Of a DNA stretch of 35,718 nt, positions 2,964 through 28,570 are shown piece after piece. Both the position numbers and the translations under genes were made by a program. This DNA is from a virus: the IMG/VR virus record IMGVR_UViG_3300047319_000870, positions 1-35,718 of that record; one strand, given 5' to 3'. Below the pieces are notes generated by a model. That model saw only the letters and a program-made list of their open reading frames with translations, was not told where the DNA came from and did no database searches. Each line of letters starts with the position of its first letter. Positions within the stretch are counted from its first letter, which is position 1.

Positions 2964-5900
2964 CAGCGAGCACCTACCAGTGCATCATTCAGCGGATTGG
3001 TGATGAACTCGGGCGCCGCGGCCTGCTGGTTCAACTGGCCGGCAGTCCGTTGACCACCGAGCACGCGCGAGCGCAGCTCAGCCGTGCCGAGCACCTTCGT
3101 CACCGCGGCCACGCGGCCCGCGTCAACACTGTTGATCATCGCCTTCAGCATCAACGCCTTTCTGGGGTCCGGCGCGTTCTGGTATTCGGGCGCGTCCATT
3201 CGCTGAGCGATCTTGTCCAGCGCCGCGCCGGTGATCTCCGTCACCGCTCGCTGTTCGTCTGGGCTCAACGTAACTTTTGCTCCCCCGATCGTGACATCCT
3301 GAGGATACGCCTTGGGTGCAACTACATCCGTGAAGCCTGCTTTGTGGAGCCGGTCAGCCTCGACGGTGAGCGGCGACGCGACGTCCTGCTGACCACCCAC
3401 AAGGATGCCGGCTCCAGTACGAGCCTTGTTCAGGACCTCGCCGGTGGTGGGGTCGATCTTCGCCGGGAGTTGCTGCGCGAGTCCTGGCCAGTTGGCCATC
3501 GTCCCTTCCCAGAGCGAGGACACTCCCTTGCGGTTGATGTCCCGAGCCACCGGGTCGGTCAGGTTCTCGACGAAACGGGCGGCGCCGGGGACGGTGACGC
3601 GACTGACCGCGTCCTGCGCCAAGCCGAGGCCCGCGCCGGTCGCTCCCCCTTGCCCGAGGTTCGAGACGAACCTGATGAGGTTCTCGCCTGGAATCCCTTG
3701 CTGGAACGGTTTGAGTGACGCGTTGAGCGCAGCGCCGAACCGTGGCCCGAAGTAGTTGGTCAGTTTCTCGAGGTCGGTCGCACCTGGCGTGCTGGGTGGT
3801 ACGTCGTGACCGCCCTTCTCGTAGCCGTCGGCCCACGACGCCATGATCTGCATCGGCAGCGCGTACGCACCCATCTCGTTCATGCTCATCCAGTTGCCAC
3901 CGACCCGCACCGAGTTCGGATGCTCGGGATCGTCCGGCCCGGTGATGTTTCCATCGCCCACGTTCTTGGCGATGGCGAGCTGGATCATGGTCTCCAACGT
4001 GGTTTCGCCAAAGGCACGTTTCGCTGCACCCATGTTGCCCGCACGCAGCGCCCGTATCGTGCGAATCGCACCCGTCGCCTGAGCAGCGACCGGCAGACGG
4101 TTCAGCCCGATCTGGAGCATCTGCACCGGGACCCCGCTGAACGGGATACCGAAGTCCATCAGCGCGCCCCCGGCCTGGTCGCGGAGCCGCGGACTGGCGA
4201 GCAACCCTTCTTTGGCGTTGGAGTAGGTTCGGAAGATGTTGTCGAGCACGCCCGTCCCCTGCTCCGTGCTGGCAACACGGCCGAACACGCTCTGCGCGCC
4301 GGCGCGCGTCCCTTCGCGGTACAGGTCGGTCGCGTGCCTTGCCAGATAGCTCTCTGCCTGCGGGTCGCTTGCGGACATGCCAGCTTCGCGCAACAGTCTG
4401 CTCGCTTCCGCTGCCATGCCCTGGTACTCGCCCAGCGTGCGGGTGAATGCGTCCGAAGCGGACAGCGCACGGAACACCGACGACTTGACCGCGCCGCCGA
4501 CACCGGGACCCCCGATGGCGCCCCCTGGACGTTCCAGCGTGGCGAGCTGTCTGCCGCGCAACGCTGAGACCGCGGCGCCGACAGCCTCCGGCAGCGCGCG
4601 CCCTACTGCACTGACGCCAGCCACTGCATCGGCCCCACGACCGCCCAACGTGAGCGCCACCGGCTGACGCGCGAGCTCGATGGTGTTGCCGATGACGTTG
4701 GCGATGTGCGTCGCCGGGTTGGACAGCATGGACTGCTTGGTGAGGTCGACCGCCTGGGCGATCGGCCCTCTAGTTGGGGGTTGGGTCGGTCTGGTGGGAG
4801 GAAAACGCGTCTCGCGCAGACTCTGAAGATTCTCGAACACCTGCCGCTCGAGCGGACCAGCGCCCGCGAATCCTGCCGCGGTATTGGTTGCGAGCAGACC
4901 AGCTCCCACGCCGCCGGCGGTACGCGCGATGCGTTCCTCCGGACTCGCATCCTCAGGGGTACTCGCGTACCCAGCAGCGCCACCTGCCGCGGCACCACCG
5001 AGCCGTGCCGCGAGCAGCGGGTCCACCGCGCCACCCTGACGTCCGCTGATGGCGTTGCGGATCTTGTCCAGCGACTCGGGAAACACCACCGTCGCCTGAT
5101 GCTCGACTGCTGCTCCGGTTGCGTCCGTCATCGGGACGCGCTTGCCGCCGGCGTAGCTGATGCCGTCGAATCCAGCAGCGCGCAGGATCTCGTTTGGCTC
5201 GAACGCGGACGCCGGACGGCCAGCGTTGACTTCCCTGGCTCGCTCCAGCGTCGCCATGTCTTGCAGATGCCGGTACAGTTCTTCGCCGGTGGCGGGGCCT
5301 CGTTGAGCCAACTGCCCGCGCATCATGGGGTTGGTGTTTTCGGCAGGAAGCGCGGAGTTGATCAATTCCTGGCGCCCCTGCGGTGAGAGTTGGTCAGCAA
5401 TGGCGTGTACCGTCTGTGGCGTTACCGGTGCATCTGCATCAAACAGATTCAAGTTCTTCGGCACATCCACCGCGCGGACGTTAGGACCAGCGCCGATCCC
5501 AAGACGCTGACGCAATTGATCCAGTACCGGCTTCAGCCTTGGGTTACGGTCAGCATTGTCAATCATCGCCCCTACCTGCTCGGTCGAGAAGATGCCCTGT
5601 CGCCGCGAAGCAAGATCGTTGACTAAAGTGCCGCCGATATACCGTCCACCGGGTTGCTGAGCCAACTGGTCCGCCGCATCAGCGAATGCGCGATCAAGGT
5701 CCTCGCGATTGATGATCGTGCTCTGTGCGCTGTTCTGTGCGTATCCAGGCTCAATCACTTCACCCGGCGCGCGGGTCGAGAAGCTCCTGAGACTCGGCGC
5801 TCCGAGTTCACCGCCGGCCGCGACCACGCCGCCAGCCACGCGCGGGTCGCTGGTGACGTAGTACCCAGGTCCGAACAAACTCTCATCTGAGAACTTGCTC

Positions 5901-7825
5901 GGTCGGTCGAACGCTGCGCCGGTGCCGTGGTACATCCGCGTGCTCGCAGGCTCCGCTGGAGCAGCAGCCGGCGGAGTGACCGCGCCAGGCTCAGCCGGCA
6001 ACGGCTCGCGACCAATCCCGCGGCCCGTCAGCGCGATCGCCTGACCTTCCAGCATGGTGCGAGCAGCGCCGGCGACATCCTGGTCGGTGACTGGCGGAAC
6101 CGTGACCCCCTTCGCAACGCTCGCCTGACGGAACTGCTCGAGCAATTGCCGCGCGGTATCGGCCATCGGCTGCTGAAGAATCTCCTCGTCGCTCAGCAAC
6201 TCAGGTCCGCGCAGCATCCCCAGCGCGCCGCCGACGACTGGTGCGTTGGCGATCTGGTTGCGCACTCCCATCAGCGGCGGGTTGGCCTGATTCTGTTCGA
6301 TGGCTTGCCCGACGTTGGACACGGCCGCATTCGGATCGGCCACCGCGGACGAGATTGCGCCGCCGACATTCTGAGCGGCGTTCTTGACCGCACTGTCGAC
6401 TTGCTGCAGACCACCCGCGAGCACGCTCGCACCTTGCTCGACGATGTTGGTGGGAGCCGGCGCTGGTCGCGTCCCTTGCGACAGCGGCGAGGTCCCTGGG
6501 ATGTTCGGGTTGTCCGCAGCGAGACCACCCTGAAGCGGTCCCATCCGCTGCTCCATCTCCGCCGGCGTCATCCATTCTTTGCCACCGCGCAGGTCGGTCC
6601 CACTCGAGCCGACGTGGAACGCACCAGACGATGGGTCGTACGCGTCCGCTGTGAAATAGTGCCCAGGAGTCGACAGCGTGACCGGGTTGCCCGACTGCGC
6701 CTCTTTGGCGAAAGCCTGCCAGTCGGCGCCGATGACGCGGTGCGGGATGTTCATCTCGTCGAACAGCTTGCTCTCGGACTGCAAGCCGGCCATGCCCGTG
6801 TCTGCGGTCCAGCCGACGTTCTTGGCCAGATCGACCGCCTCTCTCAGCGTCGGGTTCCGTCCGAACATCTGCGCGAACCGCACTGCCGCGGCGGGCCCGC
6901 ACGCGGCGTAGGCTTCGGCGCTGTTGAGCTCGCGATCGCCGAACTGGCTCAGCGTCGGCAGCACCGCATTGGCCACCGTGCCGCGAGCAGTATCGGCCGC
7001 CGTCCCGACTGCGCTCGCCGCACCACCCAGGATGTTCCGAACGTAGCGCTGGGTCTCCTCGAACGGCGGCACGCCACCGTACTGGTCGACATTGCCGGGA
7101 CCAGCGTTGTAGGCCGCCAACGCTTTTGCGTAGTCGCCGCCGTACTTCTTGAGGTTCTGCGCGTCGAGCTGCGCCGCGGCGTCGAGCGCGGCGTAGGGGT
7201 CGGTCGGGTCGATGCCCATGCCCTGTGCGGTCGCGGGCATGAACTGCGCGATCCCGATGGCGCCGGCGCCGGACTTCGCGACGGGGTTGAATCCCGACTC
7301 CTGGTCAATCTGCTTGAGAAAAATGTCCGGGTCGATGCCAGCCTTGCGCGCGGCCTGGCGCGCATAGTCACGCAGGTCCCCACCAGGCGCTACGGACGGT
7401 CCGACCTGCGGCTGAGCGTTCGCGCTCGGCGACGTCGTCTGTGGCGTCTGTGCGGCGGCCTGTGCGCTGGTATCAGGCTGCTGCTGCTGCGGCTCCGGCG
7501 CGAGAGTCTGGCCCATGCTCGCGAGCGTGTCCTGTGCGTGCTGCTGGAGTCGGCTGACGATCTCGTTCGGGTCGATCTGGACGTTCTGCAGCGGTGGCTG
7601 GTTGGCTTGCTGCGCTGCATCGAACACGCCCTGAGCGTGCTGCTGCAGTCGCTGGATGATCTCGTTCGGGTCGATCTGCGGACCAGGGACCTCAACGGGG
7701 AGCTGCGTGTTCTGGAGCGGTGGCTGATTCGCCTGTTGGATTGACTGCAGCGCGTCCTGGGCGTGCTGCTTCAGACGATCGGTGACCAGTTGCTGCGCGT
7801 CCTCTAGCGGGATGACGCCCGGCAT
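2963..7825 (-). CDS. Polyvalent internal virion/ejection protein: transglycosylase, C39-like peptidase, ADP-ribosyltransferase-like domains
   Basis: About 1,620 residues. The ATG at 7825 follows GAGG by 8 bases; a TTG one codon earlier is an alternative. Residues 1-110 carry three RLxQHAQ-type helical repeats, two of them followed by QQANQPPLQN. Residues 150-265 are an SLT lytic transglycosylase: catalytic Glu about 176 in QESGFNP, then GAIGIAQFMPATA and LAAYNAGPGNV. Residues 295-430 look like a C39/papain-like peptidase, with Cys about 309 in CGPAA and His about 389 in PGHYF. Residues 630-925 resemble ADP-ribosyltransferases of polyvalent proteins (MYHGTGAAF, GPGYYVTSDP, LRAAGFDGI). Then come a Gly/Ala hydrophobic stretch (about 935-990) and the LSNPATHIANVIGN module common in large polyvalent phage proteins. 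It probably enters the cell with the DNA, cuts peptidoglycan and acts on host proteins. The SLT call is firm, the ART call fair and the peptidase call tentative. Confidence 0.88.
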   Translation of the reverse strand: MPGVIPLEDAQQLVTDRLKQHAQDALQSIQQANQPPLQNTQLPVEVPGPQIDPNEIIQRLQQHAQGVFDAAQQANQPPLQNVQIDPNEIVSRLQQHAQDTLASMGQTLAPEPQQQQPDTSAQAAAQTPQTTSPSANAQPQVGPSVAPGGDLRDYARQAARKAGIDPDIFLKQIDQESGFNPVAKSGAGAIGIAQFMPATAQGMGIDPTDPYAALDAAAQLDAQNLKKYGGDYAKALAAYNAGPGNVDQYGGVPPFEETQRYVRNILGGAASAVGTAADTARGTVANAVLPTLSQFGDRELNSAEAYAACGPAAAVRFAQMFGRNPTLREAVDLAKNVGWTADTGMAGLQSESKLFDEMNIPHRVIGADWQAFAKEAQSGNPVTLSTPGHYFTADAYDPSSGAFHVGSSGTDLRGGKEWMTPAEMEQRMGPLQGGLAADNPNIPGTSPLSQGTRPAPAPTNIVEQGASVLAGGLQQVDSAVKNAAQNVGGAISSAVADPNAAVSNVGQAIEQNQANPPLMGVRNQIANAPVVGGALGMLRGPELLSDEEILQQPMADTARQLLEQFRQASVAKGVTVPPVTDQDVAGAARTMLEGQAIALTGRGIGREPLPAEPGAVTPPAAAPAEPASTRMYHGTGAAFDRPSKFSDESLFGPGYYVTSDPRVAGGVVAAGGELGAPSLRSFSTRAPGEVIEPGYAQNSAQSTIINREDLDRAFADAADQLAQQPGGRYIGGTLVNDLASRRQGIFSTEQVGAMIDNADRNPRLKPVLDQLRQRLGIGAGPNVRAVDVPKNLNLFDADAPVTPQTVHAIADQLSPQGRQELINSALPAENTNPMMRGQLAQRGPATGEELYRHLQDMATLERAREVNAGRPASAFEPNEILRAAGFDGISYAGGKRVPMTDATGAAVEHQATVVFPESLDKIRNAISGRQGGAVDPLLAARLGGAAAGGAAGYASTPEDASPEERIARTAGGVGAGLLATNTAAGFAGAGPLERQVFENLQSLRETRFPPTRPTQPPTRGPIAQAVDLTKQSMLSNPATHIANVIGNTIELARQPVALTLGGRGADAVAGVSAVGRALPEAVGAAVSALRGRQLATLERPGGAIGGPGVGGAVKSSVFRALSASDAFTRTLGEYQGMAAEASRLLREAGMSASDPQAESYLARHATDLYREGTRAGAQSVFGRVASTEQGTGVLDNIFRTYSNAKEGLLASPRLRDQAGGALMDFGIPFSGVPVQMLQIGLNRLPVAAQATGAIRTIRALRAGNMGAAKRAFGETTLETMIQLAIAKNVGDGNITGPDDPEHPNSVRVGGNWMSMNEMGAYALPMQIMASWADGYEKGGHDVPPSTPGATDLEKLTNYFGPRFGAALNASLKPFQQGIPGENLIRFVSNLGQGGATGAGLGLAQDAVSRVTVPGAARFVENLTDPVARDINRKGVSSLWEGTMANWPGLAQQLPAKIDPTTGEVLNKARTGAGILVGGQQDVASPLTVEADRLHKAGFTDVVAPKAYPQDVTIGGAKVTLSPDEQRAVTEITGAALDKIAQRMDAPEYQNAPDPRKALMLKAMINSVDAGRVAAVTKVLGTAELRSRVLGGQRTAGQLNQQAAAPEFITNPLNDALVGAR

Positions 7826-7861
7826 CAACCAGACCTCAACCGGCGGCGGCTATAAGAAAGA

Positions 7862-10975: not shown

Positions 10976-11156
10976 CGACCGGCCCGCTCAGACAGTCGTG
11001 GCCGCGGTACGCCACCAGCTCGTCATGGGTGCGGCAGAGCAGTCGTTCGCACAGCGGGCAGTACGTCTCTGCCTCGGCCGTGCACTCTTGCTGCTCGCAC
11101 ACGCTGCCCGCGAGTGTAACGCTATCCGTGAAACATGGCGTTTCACGAGCCGGCAT
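10965..11156 (-). CDS. Small zinc-binding (B-box-like) protein (63 aa)
   Basis: A cysteine-rich protein with the order C-x4-C, then CPLCERLLCRTHDE, then another Cys near residue 55. This resembles treble-clef or B-box-like zinc sites. The ATG at 11156 lies one base after the stop of the PrimPol-like gene, and its end overlaps the portal start. No known family can be named. Co-transcription with PrimPol and portal is likely from the spacing. Confidence 0.68.
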   Translation of the reverse strand: MPARETPCFTDSVTLAGSVCEQQECTAEAETYCPLCERLLCRTHDELVAYRGHDCLSGPVDAD

Positions 11157-15724: not shown

Positions 15725-17722
15725 TCACGATGCCTCGTCCCAGGAGCATTGTGCGAGATCCTGCTTCCCATGCGTTTCCGGTCCCCGCCCACACCTTTTA
15801 CATAGTCCACCACCCCTAACACTACTATCACTGCTATATGGGCTATTGGTGCTAAGTGGCCTATTGGTGCTAAGTGAGTCAGTGTTGTTGTTAGGGATAT
15901 CCGTGTTAGGGGAGATAGGGGTAGTGGAACGCGTGCGCGCGTCACGCGCGTCTTTCGCGCCTTCGGCGTACTGGCCTACGGCTGTATTACTACTATAGTT
16001 ATCGGTGGTCGACTTCCCGGCTCGACTATTGGATGGAAAGTATTTGCCGTCGCGGTTGCGGACTTCGCCATCCCGAACCATGACAAACAGCAGGTATCGC
16101 ACCGATCCGCGAGTTTTCTGGACCGCGTCGGCGATCTCTCCAGCCGGCATCCCCGGCACACTGGCGATCACTTCCAGGATGGCTCGACGTTCCTTCGACC
16201 GCCGGTAGTCCTCCGCCGCACCCAGCAGCGACCACTGAAATTCATCCTTTTCCCAGCGCAGCGCCAGGTCCTGCTCCTCGACGTCGCGGCCAGTCGCGAA
16301 CAGCGAGGCGTCTGCCTGGCCACGTTCACGCCGCAGTACCAGCACCCCGTCCGCGGCACCAGTCAATCCCAGCGTGCCGCTGATCAGCTCGAGCGGGTCG
16401 TCAGACTCACCCTTGCGGGTGTGCAGCACCACCATGATCGCCACCCCGCGCAACCGTGCCAGCGCTGCCAGCGGCAGCACCGCATCGTAGTCCGAGTCGT
16501 ATAGACGAGCGTTTTTCTTTTCGGTTGCTCGAACCCGCTTGAAGGTGTCGACCACCACTAACCGCGTTCGGACGTGGCTCAGCAGCCACCGGTCCAGTTC
16601 GTCGAGCCCACCCTCGTCCAGTCGCGACCACTCGCAGGCGATGTGCAGATCCGACGGCGGAAGCCGTTCTCCAAACACCATCGCCAGACGTTCCTGAATT
16701 CGCTGCGGCCCGTCCTCGAGCGCGAGGTACAGACATTCCCCCTGCGTGGTCGCCATCTTGTGAAGAAATGCCGCGTTGCCGTTGGCGACGTCAACCGCCC
16801 ACCCCAGCGCCAACCAGCTCTTTCCCAGCTTCGGACGGCCAGCCAGAATGCTCAGTCCCACCGGCACCAGCCCGGGTATCGCCCATTGTGTCGGTGCAAA
16901 CGCTGCCGCCATCAATTCCGGAGAGCGCCAGATGTGACGCGCTTCTGGAACCTCGAGCATGCTCGCGATGCCGGCCGCAGTCCCGCCACCACCCAGGAAA
17001 TCAGCCGCGTCACCATGCTCCAGTGCCGCCGACCAGCGTATCCATTGCGGCGCAGGCTTCAGCAGCGCCGCGATACGGGCCATGTGCTCGCGACCAGCGT
17101 CATCGTTATCTGGCCACAGCCACACGTTCTCTCGGCCCTGTAGTGGCTGCAGTGAGGCTGCTGATGGGGTGCCGGCTGCGCCAGTCACGGTGCCCACGGC
17201 GAGCAACCCCATATCGATCAACGCCTGGGCAGCTTTTTCCCCTTCGCACACCACCACCGGCACACGGTAGTCAGCTTGTTCCAGGGCCGGCAGCCCGTAC
17301 AACGGCAGATCCGCGACCGGCATCCCGCCCAATCCGTTCTTGCCGTTGCGTTCCCAGCGGATCAGTTTGTCGTTGGTCGCCGTCAGGTCCTCGCGGACGT
17401 GCTCGGCGACCACCTCACCACTCCTGTTGAGCAACCGAAAGCGACGGACCGGGTTCCCAGTCTGTGATTTCTCGAACAGGTCGGCCATGCTCAGCCCGAT
17501 GGGTCGCAGGATTTCTTCGAGCTCGCAGCCGGTGAAACACTTCAGCAGGACTCGGCTATCTAGTCCCAGCCCGACCGACAGGCTGGGGTGTCGGTCCTGG
17601 CCGTCGCTGTGACGCGGCCCAGGACACGATGCCTCCCAGCCCGAGCCAGATTTCTTGACCCGTTCCAGCAGGCCCAGGATGCGCCAGATTGCGCTGTTGC
17701 CATCATGCCCGGGCCCTGCCAT
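15725..17722 (-). CDS. Primase-helicase: CHC2-like zinc site, TOPRIM and RecA-like ATPase
   Basis: 665 residues from ATG 17722, which has GGAG 9 bases upstream; a TTG five codons earlier is less likely. Residues 30-80 form a DnaG-like zinc region (Cys33, His38, HPSL, Cys62, Cys66). A TOPRIM domain covers about 150-225 (VVVCEGEKAA, then WPDNDDAG). The RecA/AAA_25-type ATPase follows: Walker A GRPKLGKS at about 295-302, Walker B RLVVVDTF, then MVVLHTRKG. A helix-turn-helix-like unit (MPAGEIADAVQKTRGSVRYLL) and a Ser/Thr/Asn-rich linker lead to a terminal zinc knuckle (CKRCGRGPETH...C). It should unwind and prime phage DNA at the fork. The linker-coding DNA is much richer in A/T than the rest and carries repeats, a possible origin. 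Confidence 0.9.
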   Translation of the reverse strand: MAGPGHDGNSAIWRILGLLERVKKSGSGWEASCPGPRHSDGQDRHPSLSVGLGLDSRVLLKCFTGCELEEILRPIGLSMADLFEKSQTGNPVRRFRLLNRSGEVVAEHVREDLTATNDKLIRWERNGKNGLGGMPVADLPLYGLPALEQADYRVPVVVCEGEKAAQALIDMGLLAVGTVTGAAGTPSAASLQPLQGRENVWLWPDNDDAGREHMARIAALLKPAPQWIRWSAALEHGDAADFLGGGGTAAGIASMLEVPEARHIWRSPELMAAAFAPTQWAIPGLVPVGLSILAGRPKLGKSWLALGWAVDVANGNAAFLHKMATTQGECLYLALEDGPQRIQERLAMVFGERLPPSDLHIACEWSRLDEGGLDELDRWLLSHVRTRLVVVDTFKRVRATEKKNARLYDSDYDAVLPLAALARLRGVAIMVVLHTRKGESDDPLELISGTLGLTGAADGVLVLRRERGQADASLFATGRDVEEQDLALRWEKDEFQWSLLGAAEDYRRSKERRAILEVIASVPGMPAGEIADAVQKTRGSVRYLLFVMVRDGEVRNRDGKYFPSNSRAGKSTTDNYSSNTAVGQYAEGAKDARDARTRSTTPISPNTDIPNNNTDSLSTNRPLSTNSPYSSDSSVRGGGLCKRCGRGPETHGKQDLAQCSWDEAS
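15813..15912. repeat. AT-rich stretch with iteron-like direct repeats and a distant inverted repeat (possible origin)
   Basis: Two 18-bp units, 17 of 18 bases identical (shared core ctattggtgctaagtg at 15843-15858 and 15861-15876), lie between perfect 10-bp inverted repeats cccctaacac (15813-15822) and gtgttagggg (15903-15912). A related gttaggg occurs at 15890. Base composition is far more A/T-rich than the surroundings. It encodes the low-complexity linker of the primase-helicase, so protein sequence is little constrained here. The layout is like origins embedded in phage replication genes; the role is inferred. Confidence 0.5.
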
Positions 17723-17737
17723 GGGCGAGATCTCCAA

Positions 17738-18466
17738 TCAGAAGGGAAGTTCGTGGTCGTCCTCAGGTCCACTGGTGCGGACCGATTTGCCATCAGGGGT
17801 AAACCGATCGAACCCCTGCGCTTGCTGCCGCTCGGGTCGGTGCTTGTCCTCGCGCTGCTCACCCGATTCGGCGATCAACGCGCGCAGCTTGCCGCGGGCG
17901 TGTGCGGTGTAGCCTTCGTCCTTTTCGCCGGGCAGACTGCCTACGGCCATCGGGCCGGCGAAGTTGGCGTAGACAGTGCTGCCATCCGCAGCCTCACGAT
18001 GGGTGATGGTCCCGTAGACCTCGAGCCCTTCCCACCAGCCCAGCCAGTCACCGATCGCCGCGAGCTCTGCCTGCTGATCGTCCAGGTCCGCCGGCCGCGG
18101 CGGACCACCACCACCAGCTACCCAGGACATGAATTTTTTGGCGCCCTCTTTGGCACAGCACGCTGCCAGGAAATCGGTGAGCTTGGTCGACTTGTAATTA
18201 CCGGTCTTGTCGACGTAGCCCAGCGACAGGCCGACCGTGTAGCTAGTGCGATAGCTCTGCTGGATACCCTCGTCAGGTTTTCCATATTCCTCGAGGATGC
18301 GTTCGATCTCTGACGGCGTCAGGTTCAACGGAAGTCGTACCTGGTAGTTGCCGTATTTTTCCGACAACTTCAGCTCCGGTTTTCCCACGACGAACCTGGC
18401 CAACCCCTCGGGCAATGGGCGCCAATCGCTCTGAGATGACTCGCTCGCACGTCGCAGCAATGGCAT
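17738..18466 (-). CDS. Probable single-stranded-DNA-binding protein with SSB-like acidic tail
   Basis: 242 residues. The ATG at 18466 follows GAGGAA by 9 bases. The body alternates strands and turns (RFVVGKPELKL, YGNYQVRLPLNL, EVYGTITHRE, STVYANFAGPMA), consistent with an OB-type fold and a zinc-poor core. The C-terminus ends PEDDHELPF, very like the acidic DDxxPF tip through which bacterial SSBs recruit partner proteins. It lies directly upstream of the primase-helicase and downstream of a VRR-NUC nuclease, the expected company for a phage SSB. No exact family can be named from sight; the tail and location carry the call. Confidence 0.65.
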   Translation of the reverse strand: MPLLRRASESSQSDWRPLPEGLARFVVGKPELKLSEKYGNYQVRLPLNLTPSEIERILEEYGKPDEGIQQSYRTSYTVGLSLGYVDKTGNYKSTKLTDFLAACCAKEGAKKFMSWVAGGGGPPRPADLDDQQAELAAIGDWLGWWEGLEVYGTITHREAADGSTVYANFAGPMAVGSLPGEKDEGYTAHARGKLRALIAESGEQREDKHRPERQQAQGFDRFTPDGKSVRTSGPEDDHELPF

Positions 18467-18516: not shown

Positions 18517-18852
18517 TCACTTCAGGATTCGTTTGATCTCGTCTTCGTCCGATGGGCGCCAGCAGTACGCCTCTACGCCGTGACAGCGGTCCAGCGCGCG
18601 GAGCCACCGCTGCTGATGCGCTGGTTCGCTCCCCCTTTTCACCTGTTCTGTTTTGAGTTCCGCGAAGAGCAACCGCGGAGGTCGGACCGCGATGAGATCC
18701 GGCAGACCGCGATCGGTACCCCACCAGATAAACCGTGAGTCGTTGTTGGCCGAGACCAGCTCCCAACCGTACCGTCGCATCCACTCGATCACGAGACGCT
18801 GGAATGGACGCTCTTTGATCTGCGCGAGCATGGCCTCGCGCATGGTGGTCAT
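18517..18852 (-). CDS. VRR-NUC domain nuclease
   Basis: 111 residues, the usual size for stand-alone VRR-NUC proteins, a PD-(D/E)xK nuclease family whose members include structure-specific and Holliday-junction nucleases. The core is visible: an N-terminal helix with Glu (FQRLVIEWMRRYGW), then GLPDLIAV with the catalytic Asp, then LLFAELK with the Glu-x-Lys pair, and a QQRWLRAL helix followed by a YCWRPSDED strand. The start overlaps the stop of the membrane-protein gene by four bases. It probably resolves branched DNA during phage replication or packaging. Confidence 0.88.
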   Translation of the reverse strand: MTTMREAMLAQIKERPFQRLVIEWMRRYGWELVSANNDSRFIWWGTDRGLPDLIAVRPPRLLFAELKTEQVKRGSEPAHQQRWLRALDRCHGVEAYCWRPSDEDEIKRILK

Positions 18853-19103
18853 AGACCGATGATCCTTTCAGCCGTTTTCCAGCCGACGTACATGAGAAAG
18901 CCGCCGGCGAACAAGACGACACTCACGCTGACGCCGAGCCCGAGCATCAGCACCGCGACCAGCGCGCGGTCGGTCCAGGTCTGGCGGCGATAGCGCGACT
19001 GCTGGAGTTGCCACGTGCTGACCACATGACCAGTCCGAATGGCCTGCACGCTGATGCGACCGTTCCGATGCACCGGGATCTCTTCCACTTCCTCGGCGCT
19101 CAT
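18849..19103 (-). CDS. Small membrane protein (84 aa)
   Basis: The start is ATG 19103, which overlaps the stop of the methyltransferase (ATGA); longer frames only read through that gene. Residues 1-45 are soluble and charged (SAEEVEEIPVHRNGRI). Residues about 50-78 are one long hydrophobic span (VAVLMLGLGVSVSVVLFAGG, then FLMYVGW). Co-translation with the methyltransferase and VRR-NUC genes is likely. Function unknown. Confidence 0.68.
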   Translation of the reverse strand: MSAEEVEEIPVHRNGRISVQAIRTGHVVSTWQLQQSRYRRQTWTDRALVAVLMLGLGVSVSVVLFAGGFLMYVGWKTAERIIGL

Positions 19104-20344
19104 GACTGGTCTGCCGCCATCAGCCGATGCCCTATGAATTCCGCGACCGGCGCCACCACCCCATTCCCGATGCAGCGATAGCGATGACTGTCCGGGATCT
19201 GCTTGCCATCCGCAGTCCACTTCGTATGGTCATCGCCCCAGCCCTGGAGCCGCTCGCACTCCAGCGGGGTGAGCCGACGCACGCCCATTGAGCCAGATAT
19301 CGCCGGCGGCACTGCGCCATCACCACCGCTGCCTTTCTTGATCGGCGGCGACTCGTTCTCGCGCCACTCCTCGTCAGTCCTGCTGCTATTGGGCTGGAAG
19401 GCGATCAGGTTGTCGGCGGCCCGGTCCGGGCCAGCGACCAACCAATCGGCACCGAGCTTCTTTCTGGTGGTCGCATCTAGCGTTCCGACATCGTCGCGTG
19501 CTGCGCAGTTCTGAACGTCCAGCACCAGATTCTCGTCGTCCTCGTGGTGCCGCCCAGGCATGTTGCTGTCGGGATGACCACCAGCGCTCAGCGTCGCGGC
19601 GACGTAGTTGTGCGCGTCACCCTGGAGCGCGCAGCTGGTGCCGTCCTCGGACACGTTCGGCTCACCCTGACCGTTGCTGACCGCAATCATCGGCAGCTCG
19701 ACACTAGCCCTTCGAGCGCCGTCATCAAGCGTGGGGGCAATGTCTTCCCCCGCTTCGCCGCCCGCCGCAGAATGCCCGCCGCAGCTTTCGCAGACAGCCA
19801 GTACCGCCGCGGCACGGGCCGCGTCTCCAAGACAGCCGACAATGAAGACACGACGACGACGCTGGGGGACTCCAAAAAATCTCGCGTCCAGAACCCTCCA
19901 GGCCACGCCAAACCCGAGCTCGACCAGCCCCCGCAGTACGACACCGAAGTCGGCGCCCGGCTCGGTTCCTGAGGAAAGGAGTCCGGGAACATTCTCAACG
20001 GCGACCCATCGTGGCCGCAGCTCGCGCACGATCCGGTGGAACTCAAACCAGAGACCGCTGCGCTCCGCGGATAGACCACCCCGTTTTCCGGCCACGCTGA
20101 CGTCCTGACACGGGAACCCTCCATAGACGAGGTCAACACCCCAGAGATCTGATTGGAAAGCCTCGCGAAGTGCGGTCGCGTCCACTTGGCGAACGTCTGT
20201 GATTCGCTCACAGTCGGGCCAGTGCCGCTCCAGCACGCTCAGGCACCACGGATCCTGCTCCACCTGGAGCACCGTCTCGATGCCAGCTCGCTGGAACCCG
20301 AGCTCGAACCCGCCGACGCCAGAGAACAAGCTGATCGCCTTCAC
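19100..20344 (-). CDS. DNA cytosine-C5 methyltransferase
   Basis: 414 residues from GTG 20344 (GAGG five bases upstream), which starts exactly at the family's N-terminus MKAISLFSGVGGFELGF (motif I, AdoMet binding). Motif IV is GGFPCQDVS with catalytic Cys 79; motif VI is VAVENVPG (Glu about 117); motif VIII is PQRRRRVFIVG; motif X is IGNGVVAPVAEFIG. The RLTPLECERLQGWGDDHT segment is also present, so all key motifs are intact. It transfers a methyl group to cytosine C5 in a target that cannot be read from sequence; the region between motifs VIII and IX (about 190-330) sets it. No cognate restriction enzyme is adjacent. A self-protection (anti-restriction) or regulatory role in the phage is likely. 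Confidence 0.95.
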   Translation of the reverse strand: MKAISLFSGVGGFELGFQRAGIETVLQVEQDPWCLSVLERHWPDCERITDVRQVDATALREAFQSDLWGVDLVYGGFPCQDVSVAGKRGGLSAERSGLWFEFHRIVRELRPRWVAVENVPGLLSSGTEPGADFGVVLRGLVELGFGVAWRVLDARFFGVPQRRRRVFIVGCLGDAARAAAVLAVCESCGGHSAAGGEAGEDIAPTLDDGARRASVELPMIAVSNGQGEPNVSEDGTSCALQGDAHNYVAATLSAGGHPDSNMPGRHHEDDENLVLDVQNCAARDDVGTLDATTRKKLGADWLVAGPDRAADNLIAFQPNSSRTDEEWRENESPPIKKGSGGDGAVPPAISGSMGVRRLTPLECERLQGWGDDHTKWTADGKQIPDSHRYRCIGNGVVAPVAEFIGHRLMAADQS

Positions 20345-20351
20345 GCACACC

Positions 20352-20744
20352 TCACCGCAGCCCCAACCGCCGGCTACAGGCCGGCCACGCTGCCCAGCCC
20401 TGCACCGCGAGCCCACGCTGAGCGATGAGAATCTGCGACTCGCGGCTGGCCAGGTCGGGACGCGACGCGAATGCACCGCCGCCATACCGGTGCCAGAAGA
20501 CCATGTCCTCCTGGAGACCGCCGAAATACCCATTGCCAGTATTGGCGTACCAGCGGCCTGTCGACTCGCACTGCGCGAGCGTGTCCCAGACGTTCCATAC
20601 AGGCTCAGTAACCACCTCAGGCTCGGGTGCGTCGTCTGGAGCGTCCTCGACGGCTGGCATGGCTACCGCGGCGGCTGGAGCGACGCCTGCACCATCCACG
20701 CTCGCCACCGTCACCAGCATCGCCAGAGCAGTCAGCGTGGCCAT
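20352..20744 (-). CDS. Secreted Rpf-like transglycosylase (resuscitation-promoting-factor domain)
   Basis: 130 residues. Residues 1-30 look like a signal or anchor segment (TLTALAMLVTVASVDGAG), followed by an Ala/Pro/Glu linker. Residues 49-128 match the Rpf catalytic domain: WDTLAQCESTGRW with the catalytic Glu, NTGNGYFGGLQ, then RPDLASRESQILIAQR, and QGWAAWPACSRRLGL. Two Cys (about 58 and 122) probably form the family's disulphide. Rpf proteins cleave peptidoglycan and are mainly actinobacterial. The ATG overlaps the previous stop and the methyltransferase starts seven bases after its end. Its location among early genes rather than lysis genes is odd. Confidence 0.85.
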   Translation of the reverse strand: MATLTALAMLVTVASVDGAGVAPAAAVAMPAVEDAPDDAPEPEVVTEPVWNVWDTLAQCESTGRWYANTGNGYFGGLQEDMVFWHRYGGGAFASRPDLASRESQILIAQRGLAVQGWAAWPACSRRLGLR

Positions 20745-20998
20745 CAGTCCGCCTCAGGCTCTAATCGCATGCGGTGCCATGCGTACTCAGGGTCCCCGCC
20801 GTCACACCAGACGACCGAGAGGTCGTCGCAGTAGTACAGAGTGCGGTTGTGCACCTCGCACTGCATCCCGAGTGGCACGTCGGGATGCTCGGCATCGGAT
20901 TCCGGATGCGAGCACTGAGACAGCAACAGCGATCCACCATCGGGCGTATCGACCGACCAGAATGCTGGCGCTACTGCCCATGTTCCTGGCTCAGCCAT
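20744..20998 (-). CDS. Hypothetical Cys/His-containing protein (84 aa)
   Basis: ATG 20998 lies within the end of the preceding gene (8-bp overlap) and its stop overlaps the Rpf-like start. The product has CSHPESDAEH, MQCEVHNRTLYYCDD and VVWCDGG, so four Cys and several His could bind a metal. The composition is acidic. No family is recognised; it is probably translated together with the Rpf-like protein. Confidence 0.65.
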   Translation of the reverse strand: MAEPGTWAVAPAFWSVDTPDGGSLLLSQCSHPESDAEHPDVPLGMQCEVHNRTLYYCDDLSVVWCDGGDPEYAWHRMRLEPEAD

Positions 20999-21299
20999 CG
21001 TGGACCCCGAGCTCGTCGGCGACGTCTTCAGGCGTGCTGGACCAGTAGGCCGAGCCGTTCTCCGATTCGCGCAGCAGGTCCACGAACTGGCTCATCGTCG
21101 GGATGGCATTGCCGATCGACGCCGAACGCCTGAGCGCCGACGCGCCACCCGCGAGCCACATCACCGCCGCGATCTCCAGCAGTTCGGGCGTGTCCTCCAG
21201 GTTGTGGGCGTAGAGAAACCGGTAGTAGACCGGCATGAGAAAGCCCATCTCGGCCTGGCTGATCGAGGGCAAGCTAGCGCCACGTGTTGATGGCGTCAT
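20991..21299 (-). CDS. Hypothetical helical protein (102 aa)
   Basis: Starts ATG 21299, three bases after the preceding stop. Mostly helical and Leu/Ala-rich, with FLMPVYYRFLYAHNLED and LLEIAAVMWLAGGASAL, then a TMSQFVDLLRESENG segment. The hydrophobic part is short and mixed with charged residues, so it is more likely a soluble helical protein than membrane-bound. No family recognised. Confidence 0.65.
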   Translation of the reverse strand: MTPSTRGASLPSISQAEMGFLMPVYYRFLYAHNLEDTPELLEIAAVMWLAGGASALRRSASIGNAIPTMSQFVDLLRESENGSAYWSSTPEDVADELGVHDG

Positions 21300-21302
21300 G
21301 AG

Positions 21303-21560
21303 CTAGGCCGCGGCTTCGGCTGATTGAGAAAGTTCGAGTGAGCCGAGGAGCTCGTCGAGTTGCGCCCGCGTCAGTTCGGTGTCGTCGCCCTGCAGCGATC
21401 GCCAGAGCGCCCACCGCAGCAACGCCAGGACCTGCAATCGCGGCGGTCGACCACGCAGGTCAGCGACCTCGTGAAGAGTGTCCCAACCTGCCGGGCCGAG
21501 GTCAGTACGCGCCAGCGCCGGCACACGGACCGGGCGGGCGTTGGCGTATCCGTCGTGCAT
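21303..21560 (-). CDS. Hypothetical protein (85 aa)
   Basis: ATG 21560 follows the intergenic stretch that carries the TGACGTGC sites, so this is the first gene of a run reaching to the replication genes. The product is Leu/Arg-rich and helical (LQVLALLRWALWRSL, LTRAQLDELLGSLEL). The ribosome site is weak. Function unknown. If the sites upstream are operators, this gene and those after it would be the regulated unit. Confidence 0.6.
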   Translation of the reverse strand: MHDGYANARPVRVPALARTDLGPAGWDTLHEVADLRGRPPRLQVLALLRWALWRSLQGDDTELTRAQLDELLGSLELSQSAEAAA

Positions 21561-21623: not shown

Positions 21624-21680
21624 TCTGACGTGCACCAACAGCACGTCAGAAGCACGTCACACTACGACAGTCTGACGTGC
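21624..21680. promoter_or_regulatory. Cluster of four TGACGTGC sites, including a perfect 10-bp hairpin
   Basis: TCTGACGTGC occurs at 21624-21633 and 21671-21680, and its reverse complement GCACGTCA at 21641-21650 (full 10 bases) and 21652-21659. The first pair forms a perfect 10-bp inverted repeat with a 7-base spacer; the outer two form a second, wider one. The set spans the end of the 169-residue gene and the space before the 85-residue gene. It could be a multi-site operator or a terminator-like hairpin (no strong T run). Palindromic spacing favours a dimeric DNA-binding protein. Confidence 0.6.
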
Positions 21681-22171
21681 ATTCCCATCAAGTGGATGAA
21701 GTGTCCGCGGAGACACAGACTGTACAGGACGAGCGCCGCAACAGCTCCCAGGTGGCCGAGCGTTCGAATCAGACGCCGCTCAATGAGCTTGCCGGTGCGG
21801 TCGTATACCTCGTCGTACGTCAGGTGAACCACCCCGTTTTCCTGGTCGCCCGGCGCAGGCGTAACGGGTGCAAGCGACTCCAAAAGCAGCGGCTCCCAGG
21901 ACGGGTGCCAGTCACGCGGTGGTGGCCAGACCTCGATCCAATCTCGGCCTGCCCATTTTTTATCTCGCAGATCGGCTTTGCGTCGATCCCACGTCCTCGA
22001 GTTCAGTCGCGGCATGTGTGCCGCGGCGATGTCCGCGTTCCGCGGCAACCGCGTGACCCCTGGCTGGTAGTAACGCCTGACCGCTTCCAGATACGCGATG
22101 GCCTGCCCAGGCACCATGCTCAACGGCACGCCCGGCAGCGACGGCTGACTGTTTTTCGCTTGCTGTTCCAC
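21662..22171 (-). CDS. Hypothetical protein with C-terminal membrane segment (169 aa)
   Basis: The start is GTG 22171; GGGAGG lies 11 bases upstream. An ATG at 22178 in another frame has a better-spaced site but a product of poor composition. Residues 25-75 are basic and helical (RKADLRDKKWAGRDWIE), followed by Trp/Pro-rich WPPPRDWHPSWEP. The tail has one hydrophobic span at about 138-160 (GAVAALVLYSLCLRG). The last codons lie inside the TGACGTGC cluster. No family recognised; it is the first gene leftward of the intergenic region beside the integrase. Confidence 0.62.
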   Translation of the reverse strand: MEQQAKNSQPSLPGVPLSMVPGQAIAYLEAVRRYYQPGVTRLPRNADIAAAHMPRLNSRTWDRRKADLRDKKWAGRDWIEVWPPPRDWHPSWEPLLLESLAPVTPAPGDQENGVVHLTYDEVYDRTGKLIERRLIRTLGHLGAVAALVLYSLCLRGHFIHLMGMHVRLS

Positions 22172-22376: not shown

Positions 22377-22574
22377 GTGGTCGCTGATGAGCGGGTCGTT
22401 TCGCTGCCGCGGGACGTGTACGAGGTCCTGGCCAGGATCGTGCTGCGGAAGACTGAGCGGCAATTGGCACAGACAAAGCCGCCGCTTCCCGAGCTGGTCG
22501 AGAAGCGGCGTGTGCTGAGAAAATTCCTAGGGCTAGGCGGCGATGCGCTCGATGTCTCTGACGACCATTCCTGA
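22377..22574 (+). CDS. Possible small protein, tail-to-tail with the integrase
   Basis: A GTG-started frame of 65 residues with plausible protein composition: VVSLPRDVYEVLARIVL, a KTERQLAQ stretch and a LVEKRRVLRKFLGLGG helix. No good ribosome site. The same frame stays open without ATG, GTG or TTG back to 22218 (protein-like GPKTVVPIGAPSFPNAG just before), so it may be the 3' part of a gene whose start has been lost, or a frameshifted gene beginning at ATG 22300. It overlaps the integrase end by 42 bp. Unresolved. Confidence 0.4.
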   Translation: MVADERVVSLPRDVYEVLARIVLRKTERQLAQTKPPLPELVEKRRVLRKFLGLGGDALDVSDDHS

Positions 22575-24239
22575 CCGACGTAGAAGTACCCGGAGTTTCA
22601 ACAGGCTACGTCCACTCCCCAATCGAATGTCGGCAGTCCATTCCAGTCGCGCGTGCCGTTTCGGCTTGACCTGAACCAGCACGTCATCTTCGCCGGCGCT
22701 CTCGCCTTCGATGGGATAGACCTCCGCTCGTACGTTGAGCCGCTCAAGCAGTGCTCGCTTGTCCTCGCGGGTTGCCTGGTCGAGATCGCCCATGTCGGTG
22801 AGATATTCCCGCAGCGACGCCACCTCTTCGGCGGACATCCCCGCGGCGCGCGTGCTAGCCACCGTCCGCGCATGCTCGTCGCGCAGCCGGCTCAGCAGTC
22901 CCTTGGCCTCGTCGCGGGTCTTTTCCAGGACCGCGATCTCTTCGTCGTCCGGCTCGAGCTCGGTGAGCCGCACCACCGCCCGGTCCAGCTTGCGGCTAGT
23001 CAGCTTGATCTGTGCATCGAACGCGGCGAGCCGTCCGTCCAGTTTGCTCAACTCGGCGTCCCGCTGTTGCTGTGATTCGAGCAGCGACGAGTCCAGGCGC
23101 GCGGTATTGGTGAGTGCCTCCGCGAGCAGCAGCCAGGCTATTTCTTCAGCCAGGTCGGCCCTGAGCGTGGGGGTGGTGCATCGTCGATCGAGCGCGAACA
23201 GCCGGTCGATGCGCGACTCGAAGCGGTTGGGGCAGACGTAGTAGCGGCGCATCCCACCGGCCATTGCCTCGGTACGCAGCAGTTGCTCGTTGCCGGGCTT
23301 GCTGCAGACGCCACAGACCAGCCGGCCGCGGAGCAGGTACTCGTCGTCTTCGTCGCGCCTGTGCCCGGAGGGGCGGTGCGCTCGGCTTGCCATAGCTCGC
23401 TCGACGTCGTCGAAGAGGTCCTCGCCGATGATGGCCGGCACTTCGATGGGGTTGCCGGCGTAGGTGCCCTTGCCGGTGTACAGGCGATTGGTGAGGACGC
23501 TGTACAGGGTCGAGTGGTGCCAGACCAAATCGGCCCCCTTGCGGCCGCGGGAATGTCCCGGCGAGGGGATGACCGACTGATCGAGCCAGCGCAGGATCTT
23601 TGCCCCGGACATGTGGCGAGCCCGATCGAAGAGCGCGCGGACGATGCTCGCCTCGGCCTCGTTGATCCTGAGCCCGATGATGCGTCCCTGCTTGCCAGTG
23701 GCCATGTCGGTGCCGGTGCGGATGGGTAAGTAGCCGAAGGGGATGAGTCCGTTGCCAACCCATCGTCCCATTTCTGCCTTGGCGCGCCGGCCGCGCATGC
23801 TGGAGCGCCGCCGTTTGGCGCGGTCGTACTGGCTGAAGGCGTGGCTGACACCGTTGAGCAGCTCCGCCTCGGCGCTCTGCTCGGCGCTCAGCGGTGGCGC
23901 GTCGAGGTACTGCACGCGCACGCCTAACGTGGCGAGCTCGGCCTCGATCACCATTGCCTTCACCTGGTCGCGGGCGAGCCGGTCGTGGGACGGAACGATC
24001 AGAACCGTGAACCTGTGGGCGCGCGCGGCATCGAGCATCGCGTTGAGCGCGGGCAGGTCCCAGTCGGCACCACTGGTGTCCTGGTCGACCCCGTCGCGGA
24101 AGTGCAGATCGGGCAGGAGCGCCCATCCCTGCTGTTGAGCGAAGCTGGCAGCATCCTGGCGCTGAGCTCCCAGGCTGTAGCCCTGAGCGGCCTGCACCAT
24201 GGTAGAGACGCGCTCATAGTCGGCGGCGATTACCGTCAT
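22533..24239 (-). CDS. int: Large serine recombinase (phage integrase)
   Basis: 568 residues, typical of large serine integrases, which recombine attP with attB via a 5'-phosphoserine. The N-terminal resolvase domain has the catalytic Ser12 in DYERVS, the SLGAQR segment, and LIVPSHDRLARD with the active-site Arg. The recombinase domain follows (IPFGYLPI, ILRWLDQ, LTNRLYTGKGTYAG). The zinc ribbon is CGVCSKPGNEQLL with YYVCPN, then RRC. A long coiled-coil-like region (about 400-480) precedes the beta-rich C-terminus. ATG 24239 overlaps the upstream zinc-ribbon gene by four bases. All expected domains are intact. Synapsis is controlled by the coiled coil, and excision needs a directionality factor that is not identified here. 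Confidence 0.95.
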   Translation of the reverse strand: MTVIAADYERVSTMVQAAQGYSLGAQRQDAASFAQQQGWALLPDLHFRDGVDQDTSGADWDLPALNAMLDAARAHRFTVLIVPSHDRLARDQVKAMVIEAELATLGVRVQYLDAPPLSAEQSAEAELLNGVSHAFSQYDRAKRRRSSMRGRRAKAEMGRWVGNGLIPFGYLPIRTGTDMATGKQGRIIGLRINEAEASIVRALFDRARHMSGAKILRWLDQSVIPSPGHSRGRKGADLVWHHSTLYSVLTNRLYTGKGTYAGNPIEVPAIIGEDLFDDVERAMASRAHRPSGHRRDEDDEYLLRGRLVCGVCSKPGNEQLLRTEAMAGGMRRYYVCPNRFESRIDRLFALDRRCTTPTLRADLAEEIAWLLLAEALTNTARLDSSLLESQQQRDAELSKLDGRLAAFDAQIKLTSRKLDRAVVRLTELEPDDEEIAVLEKTRDEAKGLLSRLRDEHARTVASTRAAGMSAEEVASLREYLTDMGDLDQATREDKRALLERLNVRAEVYPIEGESAGEDDVLVQVKPKRHARLEWTADIRLGSGRSLLKLRVLLRRSGMVVRDIERIAA

Positions 24240-24584: not shown

Positions 24585-24617
24585 GACCCCCGGTCGGTGG
24601 CTTCCGACGCGGGGGTC
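24585..24617 (-). terminator. Strong hairpin after the repressor gene
   Basis: GACCCCCG / CGGGGGTC (8 bp) continues into GTCGG / CCGAC (5 bp) with a one-base bulge and a 6-base loop. It overlaps the stop codon of the XRE gene. Read on the minus strand no T run follows, so it may be an mRNA-stabilising or attenuating hairpin rather than a complete terminator; the T-rich side is on the plus strand. Confidence 0.5.
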
Positions 24618-24906
24618 ATTCTTTGTTTTCTTCCCAGAGCTCGAATGGTTTGACGTGTAGGGCTCTGGCCAATTTTTTGACGGTCGGCGGCAGCGCGTCT
24701 GGGTCGCCTGCCTCGAGTCGGATGATCGTCGTCCTGGCCACGCCTGAGCGCTCAGCCAACTCAGCCTGAGTCATGGCGGCACGAAGCCGCAAGTCCCGCA
24801 GCCGGGTCAGGACTGGCATTTTCTCAGGTCCGACGGTAGTTGAATCGGTGTAGGTCAGGAGTTCGCTCAGTGTACTCTGCGCGTCCTGCGAGTCAGCGGT
24901 TGCCAT
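24616..24906 (-). CDS. XRE-family helix-turn-helix repressor
   Basis: 96 residues. Residues 34-90 form a Cro/C1-type helix-turn-helix: LRDLRLRAAMTQAELAERSG, VARTTIIRLEAG, PPTVKKLARALHV. The tail ends FELWEENKE. Residues 1-30 are an unstructured Ser/Thr-rich leader; ATG 24819 (MPVLTRL, preceded by GAGAAA) is a possible shorter start. It is transcribed away from the rightward early operon, from a shared promoter/operator region, the standard arrangement of a phage immunity repressor. No protease-cleavable domain is present, so release from repression would need another route. Confidence 0.88.
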   Translation of the reverse strand: MATADSQDAQSTLSELLTYTDSTTVGPEKMPVLTRLRDLRLRAAMTQAELAERSGVARTTIIRLEAGDPDALPPTVKKLARALHVKPFELWEENKE

Positions 24907-27895: not shown

Positions 27896-28570
27896 CTAGC
27901 TCGAGCTCCAGAGACAGCTCCACGCGCCCAAAGCGTCCCAGTCCGCGCGAGTGATCTCGTTCCAGATTCCCCTGTATCCGGGCGCGCTGTTCGCGATGTA
28001 CAGCCTGCCGTTAGCGGCGCCGCGGAACGCCACCCAGTGGTAATAGCTCTGGCCCGAGCCGAGACCGACCACGTGACTGTAGATCCCGTACGCCTGATCG
28101 AAGCTGAGCCACCCCTGTTGCATCTCCAGTCCCGCGTGCTCGCGAAGCACCCGTTGCAGCTCCACGCCACTGCCATCATGCAAGCCGAGTGCCGGGCTGA
28201 TGTTGTCGGGGTAGCCGATCGCGTAGACGACCTGCTCGCGATTGCTGTAAACGTCGCTGCCGCGGCCGGCACCGACGCTCCGCTCGGTCCATTCCGTCGC
28301 CGCCGCAGAACACGTCCAGTCGTAGAGCTGCGCCGGCTGTTCTGCCCACGGGTCCCAGGCCACCCCGTCAGCCGGGACCTCCCCCTCAAAAGGGACGCGG
28401 TTCGTTCGATTATCCGCCTCTATCCAGAAATAGGTGGCGTCGCGGCCGAAGGTCTGGCTGATCTTGTTGCCCTCCCGCAGGACAATGAAGACCTCGTCCG
28501 ACCTCGGCTCATCGCCCGCGTCAGCCATCGCTTGCTGGACGCCTGGGCCTACAGAGAAGTCGGCCACCAT
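27896..28570 (-). CDS. Papain-like/C39-like peptidase, possible endolysin (224 aa)
   Basis: The start is ATG 28570, with GGAGG five bases upstream. Residues 1-80 are a separate N-terminal part (FSVGPGVQQAMADAG, ATYFWIEADN). The core shows a cysteine-peptidase pattern: YDWTCSAAATEW (Cys87), then YPDNISPALGLHDGSG, YYHWVAFRG (His178) and YIANSAPGYRGI (Asn194), ending ALGAWSCLW. Such C39/NlpC-like hydrolases cut peptide bonds in proteins or peptidoglycan. Its position just upstream of two membrane proteins supports a lysis endopeptidase. The fold call is from motif layout only; a virion-associated protease is the alternative. Confidence 0.6.
   Translation of the reverse strand: MVADFSVGPGVQQAMADAGDEPRSDEVFIVLREGNKISQTFGRDATYFWIEADNRTNRVPFEGEVPADGVAWDPWAEQPAQLYDWTCSAAATEWTERSVGAGRGSDVYSNREQVVYAIGYPDNISPALGLHDGSGVELQRVLREHAGLEMQQGWLSFDQAYGIYSHVVGLGSGQSYYHWVAFRGAANGRLYIANSAPGYRGIWNEITRADWDALGAWSCLWSSS

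Follow-up and report, generated by a model that had tools for sequence, protein, structure and literature searches.

A predicted exported Rpf-type lytic transglycosylase in a phage gene slot with apparently interchangeable catalytic domains

Our analysis of a 35,718-base stretch of viral DNA, presumably from a soil phage of actinobacteria (the window, which is a whole IMG/VR virus record classed as linear), identified, at 20352-20744 on the minus strand, an ORF that encodes a real Rpf catalytic domain, matched far beyond chance and preceded by a hydrophobic leader. Comparison with related phages shows that this ORF occupies a slot, that is, a gene position at which the catalytic domain is interchangeable, being either Rpf or SLT-like.

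The Rpf-type enzyme and its leader

The profile search matched PF06737 to residues 52-123 of this ORF (E = 2.6e-27; 95.7 bits against a cut-off of 27), and PHROG 29757 ("transglycosylase") matched it with an E value of 3.8e-25. At E <= 0.1, its PDB matches comprised eight distinct sequences, all of them mycobacterial RpfB, RpfC or RpfE, the best one being RpfB 3eo5 (E = 4.2e-24). Glu60, Cys59 and Cys123 pair with RpfB residues and are invariant in 20/20 aligned rows. The structural model, based on an alignment of 20 phage sequences, reached a pLDDT of at least 90 at 78 residues and superimposed on RpfB 4emn with an rmsd of 1.0 Å over 79 columns (51% identity; Foldseek), and the 16 Foldseek matches at E <= 0.001 were all Rpf entries. 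The PF06737 score, the PDB matches and the invariant residues bear out the original prediction of an Rpf domain with a catalytic Glu and a Cys pair. The following features were assigned to the ORF:

20352..20744 (-), whole ORF: predicted exported Rpf-type lytic transglycosylase, 130 aa (profile, PDB, alignment and model)
20595..20744 (-), N-terminal leader followed by an acidic Pro/Ala linker, together residues ~1-50; hydrophobic core spanning residues 3-16; Lys/Arg absent
20376..20591 (-), Rpf catalytic domain, PF06737 positions 6-77 (profile; pLDDT and Foldseek results as above)
20568..20570 (-), Cys59, first Cys of the pair (alignment to RpfB)
20565..20567 (-), Glu60, catalytic Glu (alignment to RpfB)
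20376..20378 (-), Cys123, second Cys of the pair (alignment to RpfB)

The enzyme shares its catalytic fold, its Glu and its Cys pair with actinobacterial RpfB, RpfC and RpfE. It differs from them in that the Pfam profile search recognized no domain beyond Rpf, in that it belongs to a phage-only clade (see below), and in that it scores below the NCBIfam equivalog cut-offs for both Rpf (71.1 against 180 bits) and RpfC (76.9 against 200 bits). It has the Rpf/RpfC catalytic domain and is the equivalog of neither.

The leader is hydrophobic and uncharged, with no Lys or Arg (none in the first 8 residues), and so has no positive n-region. An uncharged 12-mer with a mean hydropathy of at least 2.0 lies within residues 1-28 of 28/30 slot enzymes from the window and related phages, and such an N-terminal 12-mer is found in 0/30 of the other window genes. 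The 12-mer is missing from two slot enzymes, L005 and L222, whose leaders bear AxA sites and are either charged or slightly weaker. Early Arg or Lys together with AxA sites characterize the leaders of L005, L058, L212, L225 and L222, which look like cleavable signals. Lacking a positive n-region, the window leader makes export less certain than the AxA-type leaders of these relatives do, and the absence of Lys/Arg combined with the acidic linker would allow either cleavage or anchoring. Its composition would also be compatible with the N-terminal segment of a SAR endolysin. Overall, the hydrophobic uncharged leader is in line with the proposal that this is a secreted or anchored muralytic enzyme.

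Gene neighborhood and exchange of the catalytic domain

The window has three close relatives (records G007, G008 and G009), with which many of its genes are common at 80-100% identity. Its minus-strand order runs from an HTH repressor through the integrase, a hairpin, small ORFs, the Rpf enzyme, a methyltransferase, a one-TM protein and a VRR-NUC-like protein to the primase/helicase:

24616..24906 (-), HTH repressor-like protein
22533..24239 (-), serine integrase (profile matches)
22480..22510 (-), terminator-like hairpin 3' of the integrase, 13 pairs (9 G-C), which sets the enzyme's operon apart from the integrase
21662..22171 (-), first ORF of the presumed early operon, no assigned function (ORF list, profile search)
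21303..21560 (-), small ORF of the enzyme's operon, no assigned function (ORF list, profile search)
20991..21299 (-), small ORF of the enzyme's operon, no assigned function, kept in G007, G008 and G009
20744..20998 (-), small ORF of 84 aa, rich in Cys and His; the A of its stop TGA is also the first base of the enzyme's ATG
19100..20344 (-), C5-cytosine DNA methyltransferase (PF00145), next downstream, with a GTG at 20344 or 20350
18849..19100 (-), small protein whose C-terminal part has a single strong transmembrane segment, no family; kept in G007, G008 and G009 between the methyltransferase and the endonuclease
18517..18852 (-), VRR-NUC-like endonuclease, weak profile match
15725..17737 (-), primase/helicase

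The terminator scan returned five sites against 4.0 expected by chance, and the integrase hairpin is notable for its strength and place only; the sigma-70 promoter scan returned one site against a chance expectation of 1.0 and was disregarded. The small upstream ORFs, with their one-base overlap, and the adjoining methyltransferase, which starts 1 or 7 bases past the stop of the enzyme, are present as originally described. A one-base stop/start overlap at the exact start of the leader, with an upstream ORF of at least 50 codons, was found in 15/24 Rpf loci examined (including two pairs of near copies), and the upstream gene in these loci varies. Such overlaps suggest that the slot enzyme is usually translationally coupled to the preceding gene. 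A RecT-family gene lies 128-693 nt downstream of the enzyme in 9/29 loci compared (two called by Pfam and seven by homology), and an integrase near the enzyme was identified in L003 and L006. The placement of the enzyme in the early/replication region, which was part of the original prediction, rests on comparative gene order and, together with the coupling, this order argues for it. PF00145 is present in 11/27 records and adjoins the enzyme only in G000, G007 and G008; a constant methyltransferase partnership is thus ruled out, as the two genes are adjacent only in the window's own lineage.

At the same place in G007, G008 and G009 (loci L008, L009 and L010, respectively), the leader DNA is 85-91% identical to that of the window over the first ~145-165 nt. 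After the leader, DNA similarity ends, to resume at the stop codon in L008 and L009 (85.7% over 631 nt in L008). Between leader and stop, L008 encodes an SLT-like domain (PF01464, 24.4 bits; cut-off 21.3) that gave no BLASTP alignment with the window Rpf domain at E <= 100. Given that the flanks are so similar, divergence of the two domains in place is not a reasonable explanation, and the catalytic domain was replaced by recombination.

A second, independent background for the swap is provided by a linker module of ~45 residues, located between leader and catalytic domain and joined to either Rpf or SLT-like domains. It was found in six Rpf proteins, and an HMM built from these six and searched against 2,270 sequences detected it in the SLT-like proteins L223 (1.9e-19), L225 (1.8e-17), L212 (9.5e-10) and L034 (4.5e-9), and no unrelated ORF passed the inclusion threshold. 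A pattern like VDPxDLxGAxxTTGLxPxxYLxxxGEL can be seen in the linkers of L006, L044, L052, L054, L058, L096, L212, L223, L225 and L034.

A scan with a gene that lies upstream of the enzyme and that we call X (L003:7612-7923 and relatives, alignment A4) gave 29 loci, 9 of them present by construction (eight alignment members and one near copy). Gene X was followed by an Rpf enzyme in 11 loci, by an SLT-like enzyme in 4, by a leader-bearing protein without Pfam match in 1 (L222) and by no such enzyme in 13. In the independent count, an enzyme follows X in 7/20 loci (three Rpf, three SLT-like and one unassigned) and 13/20 are without one. Each of the 16 enzymes downstream of X overlaps its stop, by four bases in L222 and by one base in the other 15. 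In the seven loci L215-L221, X is followed by a Cys-rich zinc-finger-like ORF of 63-67 aa, to which the window ORF 10965-11156 is similar by eye. Gene X and a 242-aa window protein (17738-18466, minus strand), neither of which matched any family, both have an acidic tail with an LPF-like end, which resembles that of single-strand DNA-binding proteins.

Of the SLT-like proteins, L008, L212, L223 and L034 exceed the PF01464 cut-off, and L010 and L225 stay under it. L225 scores higher with PF06737, still below the cut-off, and SLT-like domains also give below-cut-off PF06737 scores. In view of these weak Pfam scores, "SLT-like lysozyme-family" is the safe name for the alternative domain. The model of the SLT-like variant was poor (pLDDT 60.9) and matched no PDB fold at E <= 0.001, and the profile comparison A2-A3 (78.7% probability) was set aside as uninformative on the domains, with the shared leader included in it. 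Further small phage proteins with an SLT-like C-terminal domain were seen (L237 and L240-L249), most with leader-like N-termini and several with ATGA-overlap starts.

Near relatives, lysis genes and distribution

The record carries genes for a terminase, a primase/helicase, a serine integrase, a repressor-like HTH protein, a tail fibre and an SLT-bearing virion-type protein of 1621 aa. G007 has two copies of the SLT domain at a distance of 39,173 bases, which suggests a unit genome of ~39.2 kb. The window is without ~3.7 kb present in G007, the major head protein included, and is therefore not a complete genome; no lysis gene was seen in this extra ~3.7 kb, where 7/8 ORFs scanned match no family. 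Identity between the integrases of the window and G007 is only 22%, whereas most neighboring genes exceed 90%, indicating that the integration module was exchanged.

No holin or standard endolysin was recognized among the window ORFs scanned, nor any lysis cassette beside the Rpf enzyme. The claim that the gene lies far from the lysis genes could not be confirmed, as the record has no recognized lysis cassette to measure from. Two further proteins bear on lysis:

2963..7828 (-), virion-type protein, 1621 aa, with the SLT domain, the only other recognized muralytic domain
27896..28570 (-), candidate late lysin or virion peptidase, 224 aa, with Cys87, His178 and Asn194; labeled by eye only

The former gives, just past its SLT domain, a weak Peptidase_C39-like match (E = 0.047), and the protein resembles phage internal virion or lytic tail proteins. 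The latter has relatives in 14/27 records (counting the window) and its Cys87, His178 and Asn194 are invariant in 7/7 rows; it had no Pfam or PDB match and is named by no library. Its gene comes last among the structural genes. In several relatives, the first ~62 residues and the C-terminal part of its counterpart are in different frames, as if the protein were a fusion in the window's lineage.

An IMG/VR profile scan yielded 196 relatives of the enzyme. Among the 80 retained, the Rpf domain forms the C-terminal end in 39, and the others mostly have long C-terminal extensions. In a tree of only 79 columns, the window Rpf falls within a phage clade of 19 rows (support 100/98) with 0/25 host rows inside, which rules out a recent capture from a host. 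The small phage Rpfs do not make up one clade: 18/23 are in the window's clade, another four make up a clade of their own and L096 is placed elsewhere. Values of dN/dS were 0.11-0.36 in 12/13 Rpf pairs (those giving a value), several dS values being saturated, and 0.16-0.27 in three SLT-like pairs, suggesting that the phage-only Rpf clade of the window is under purifying selection. A degraded gene is ruled out by the open frame, the invariant residues and these dN/dS values below 0.4, subject to the same saturation.

The Rpf domain was matched in 164 of 50,697 phage records, none of the matches covering 80% of the query, and the 60 matches listed include many tape measure proteins and also stand-alone genes. 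Gene X, which lies upstream, and a 674-aa protein had no match in the same 50,697 records, which were searched for cultured relatives. In the genome scan for a host, the best 80 of at least 352 relatives, in at least 600 stretches, have the appearance of ordinary cellular Rpf genes. Away from the Rpf itself, ten of these best 80 loci matched phage-locus proteins, the matches listed being second Rpf copies, and no prophage copy was recognized among the 80.

Function of the enzyme and comparison with known systems

Considering domain, residues, leader, gene order, coupling and swap together, we give an even chance to the reading that the window enzyme is an early-made, exported, accessory lytic transglycosylase, its activity, export, timing and part in lysis being predictions. 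It would be a small Sec-exported or membrane-tethered enzyme, made early or in mid-infection through translational coupling within a DNA-metabolism operon, and would nick the host glycan strands from the outer side of the membrane. Since Rpf-type enzymes are weak muralysins and the host would repair its wall, it could build up without lysis, to turn decisive once the membrane is de-energized and the peptides are cleaved by a late enzyme. With no holin and no certain late endolysin recognized, this partner is hypothetical, and the 224-aa protein at 27896-28570 is a candidate by eye. The Rpf/SLT-like interchange points to a generic exported lytic transglycosylase and counts against an Rpf-specific wake-up signal, and wall cutting is probably the job of the enzyme, rather than the dormancy-ending effect of its Rpf relatives. 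Of the roles originally suggested, namely to wake or remodel the host or to help release, helping release is favored, and a specific waking of resting hosts is unsupported given that an SLT-like domain fills the same slot. Speaking against accessory lysis, a lysis gene is unusual in an early operon, and 13/29 gene X loci have no such enzyme after X.

Such an enzyme would resemble the accessory lysis enzyme Tgl of the Staphylococcus kayviruses, except that its catalytic module is Rpf instead of IsaA/SceD-like. Kayvirus Tgl is described as a secreted, early-transcribed, muralytic enzyme that lyses S. aureus in combination with nisin and has been proposed to support the late LysK (PMC7150955). 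Tgl is a phage-encoded lytic transglycosylase related to host autolysins, and so, by prediction, is the window enzyme. According to the same source, Tgl has its own signal peptide, early-like transcription and no premature lysis (PMC7150955); for the window enzyme, export is predicted and the timing comes from gene order. Unlike the IsaA/SceD-related Tgl as described there, the window domain is Rpf and is exchanged for an SLT-like one, and whereas tgl lies within the lysis module of a Firmicutes phage, a few genes from lysK and the holin, the window gene stands among DNA-metabolism genes.

The PF06737 domain of the window enzyme has been reported in mycobacteriophage tape measure proteins and cluster A LysA (PMC3314691, PMC6392294, PMC1796659), where it is part of large virion proteins or of three-domain lysins, in contrast to the stand-alone window enzyme with its leader; mycobacteriophage endolysins are said to be without export signals (PMC6116114). 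Small stand-alone PF06737-type proteins outside the tail genes are Rhodococcus phage Weasels2 gp46, Streptomyces phage GiJojo gp174 and Mycobacterium prophage prophi79-1 gp102, one of which adjoins methyltransferase and thymidylate synthase genes, but these belong to other genome types and no slot with exchange is shown for them. The Rpf/Sps non-orthologous domain displacement in Firmicutes concerns host proteins across phyla, whereas the present case concerns phage alleles in otherwise similar genomes. The T7 gene 3.5 lysozyme is likewise a wall enzyme coded between DNA-metabolism genes but, unlike the window enzyme, it is an amidase without signal sequence that also inhibits RNA polymerase.

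We regard as unlikely the alternative that an early phage Rpf resuscitates its host by loosening the wall of a starving or dormant cell, which would sense anhydromuropeptides, regrow and give a larger burst. The domain is a true Rpf domain in a presumed early operon, some mycobacteriophages infect Rpf-deficient hosts less well according to a conference report (PMC12908700), a peptidoglycan motif in the tape measure is described as aiding TM4 infection of stationary cells (PMC1796659), and the culturability of soil bacteria is reported to be raised by both Rpf and anhydro-MurNAc (PMC10569661). Anhydromuropeptides could come from any lytic transglycosylase, which fits resuscitation too. With near relatives carrying an SLT-like domain behind the same leader, however, Rpf identity is unneeded and an Rpf domain need not mean resuscitation. 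Moreover, a dormant cell must transcribe and translate the phage operon before any enzyme exists, and no dormancy-linked gene was recognized beside the enzyme. It is quite unlikely, in our view, that early wall editing serves superinfection exclusion by barring rival phages that depend on their virions to cleave the same glycan bonds: early position, predicted export signal and exchangeable wall-active domains would agree with it, as would the SLT domain in the phage's own virion protein, but lysins too are expected to exchange domains.

The exported enzyme might also cause lysis alone, as a main endolysin of perhaps signal-anchor-release type, an idea encouraged by the absence of Amidase_2 from 25/27 records and of any standard lysin among the window ORFs scanned, by the weak uncharged hydrophobic leaders, and by the putative SAR-like second endolysins described in Streptomyces cluster BE phages (PMC11705968). 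We consider it very unlikely, as the enzyme has no cell-wall-binding domain, Rpf-type enzymes are weak muralysins and the AxA leaders of relatives appear cleavable rather than anchored. The presence of an integrase and a repressor-like gene means that the phage is probably temperate and brings in lysogenic conversion, in which an enzyme expressed from the prophage would help the host grow, separate or compete; we hold this to be highly improbable, given that the gene sits inside what is presumed to be a lytic early operon, among nuclease, RecT or primase genes, rather than by the repressor or an attachment end, and that the best 80 genome loci held no recognized prophage copy.

A literature search on Rpf in phages, prophages and viral contigs, run mostly without subscription journals, found no paper on an Rpf-bearing, domain-swapping early slot. 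That PF06737 occurs in cluster A lysins and in tape measure proteins of phages is already published; what appears to be new is the early slot with its Rpf/SLT-like swap. More speculatively, and in our view rather improbably, an early-operon slot for an exported lytic transglycosylase (Rpf, SLT-like or perhaps another lysozyme-family domain) could be widespread in uncultured actinobacterial phages, the selected product being anhydromuropeptide or wall softening that restarts or loosens slow-growing soil hosts before replication. If the reading as an early, exported accessory enzyme is true, actinobacterial phages would bring a host-type Rpf activity to bear on the host wall as soon as infection begins, a step for which the literature found offers one example, an enzyme of a staphylococcal phage. 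With one leader in front of either domain, the natural Rpf/SLT-like swap gives a matched pair for asking whether "resuscitation" needs the Rpf domain or just glycan-strand cleavage.
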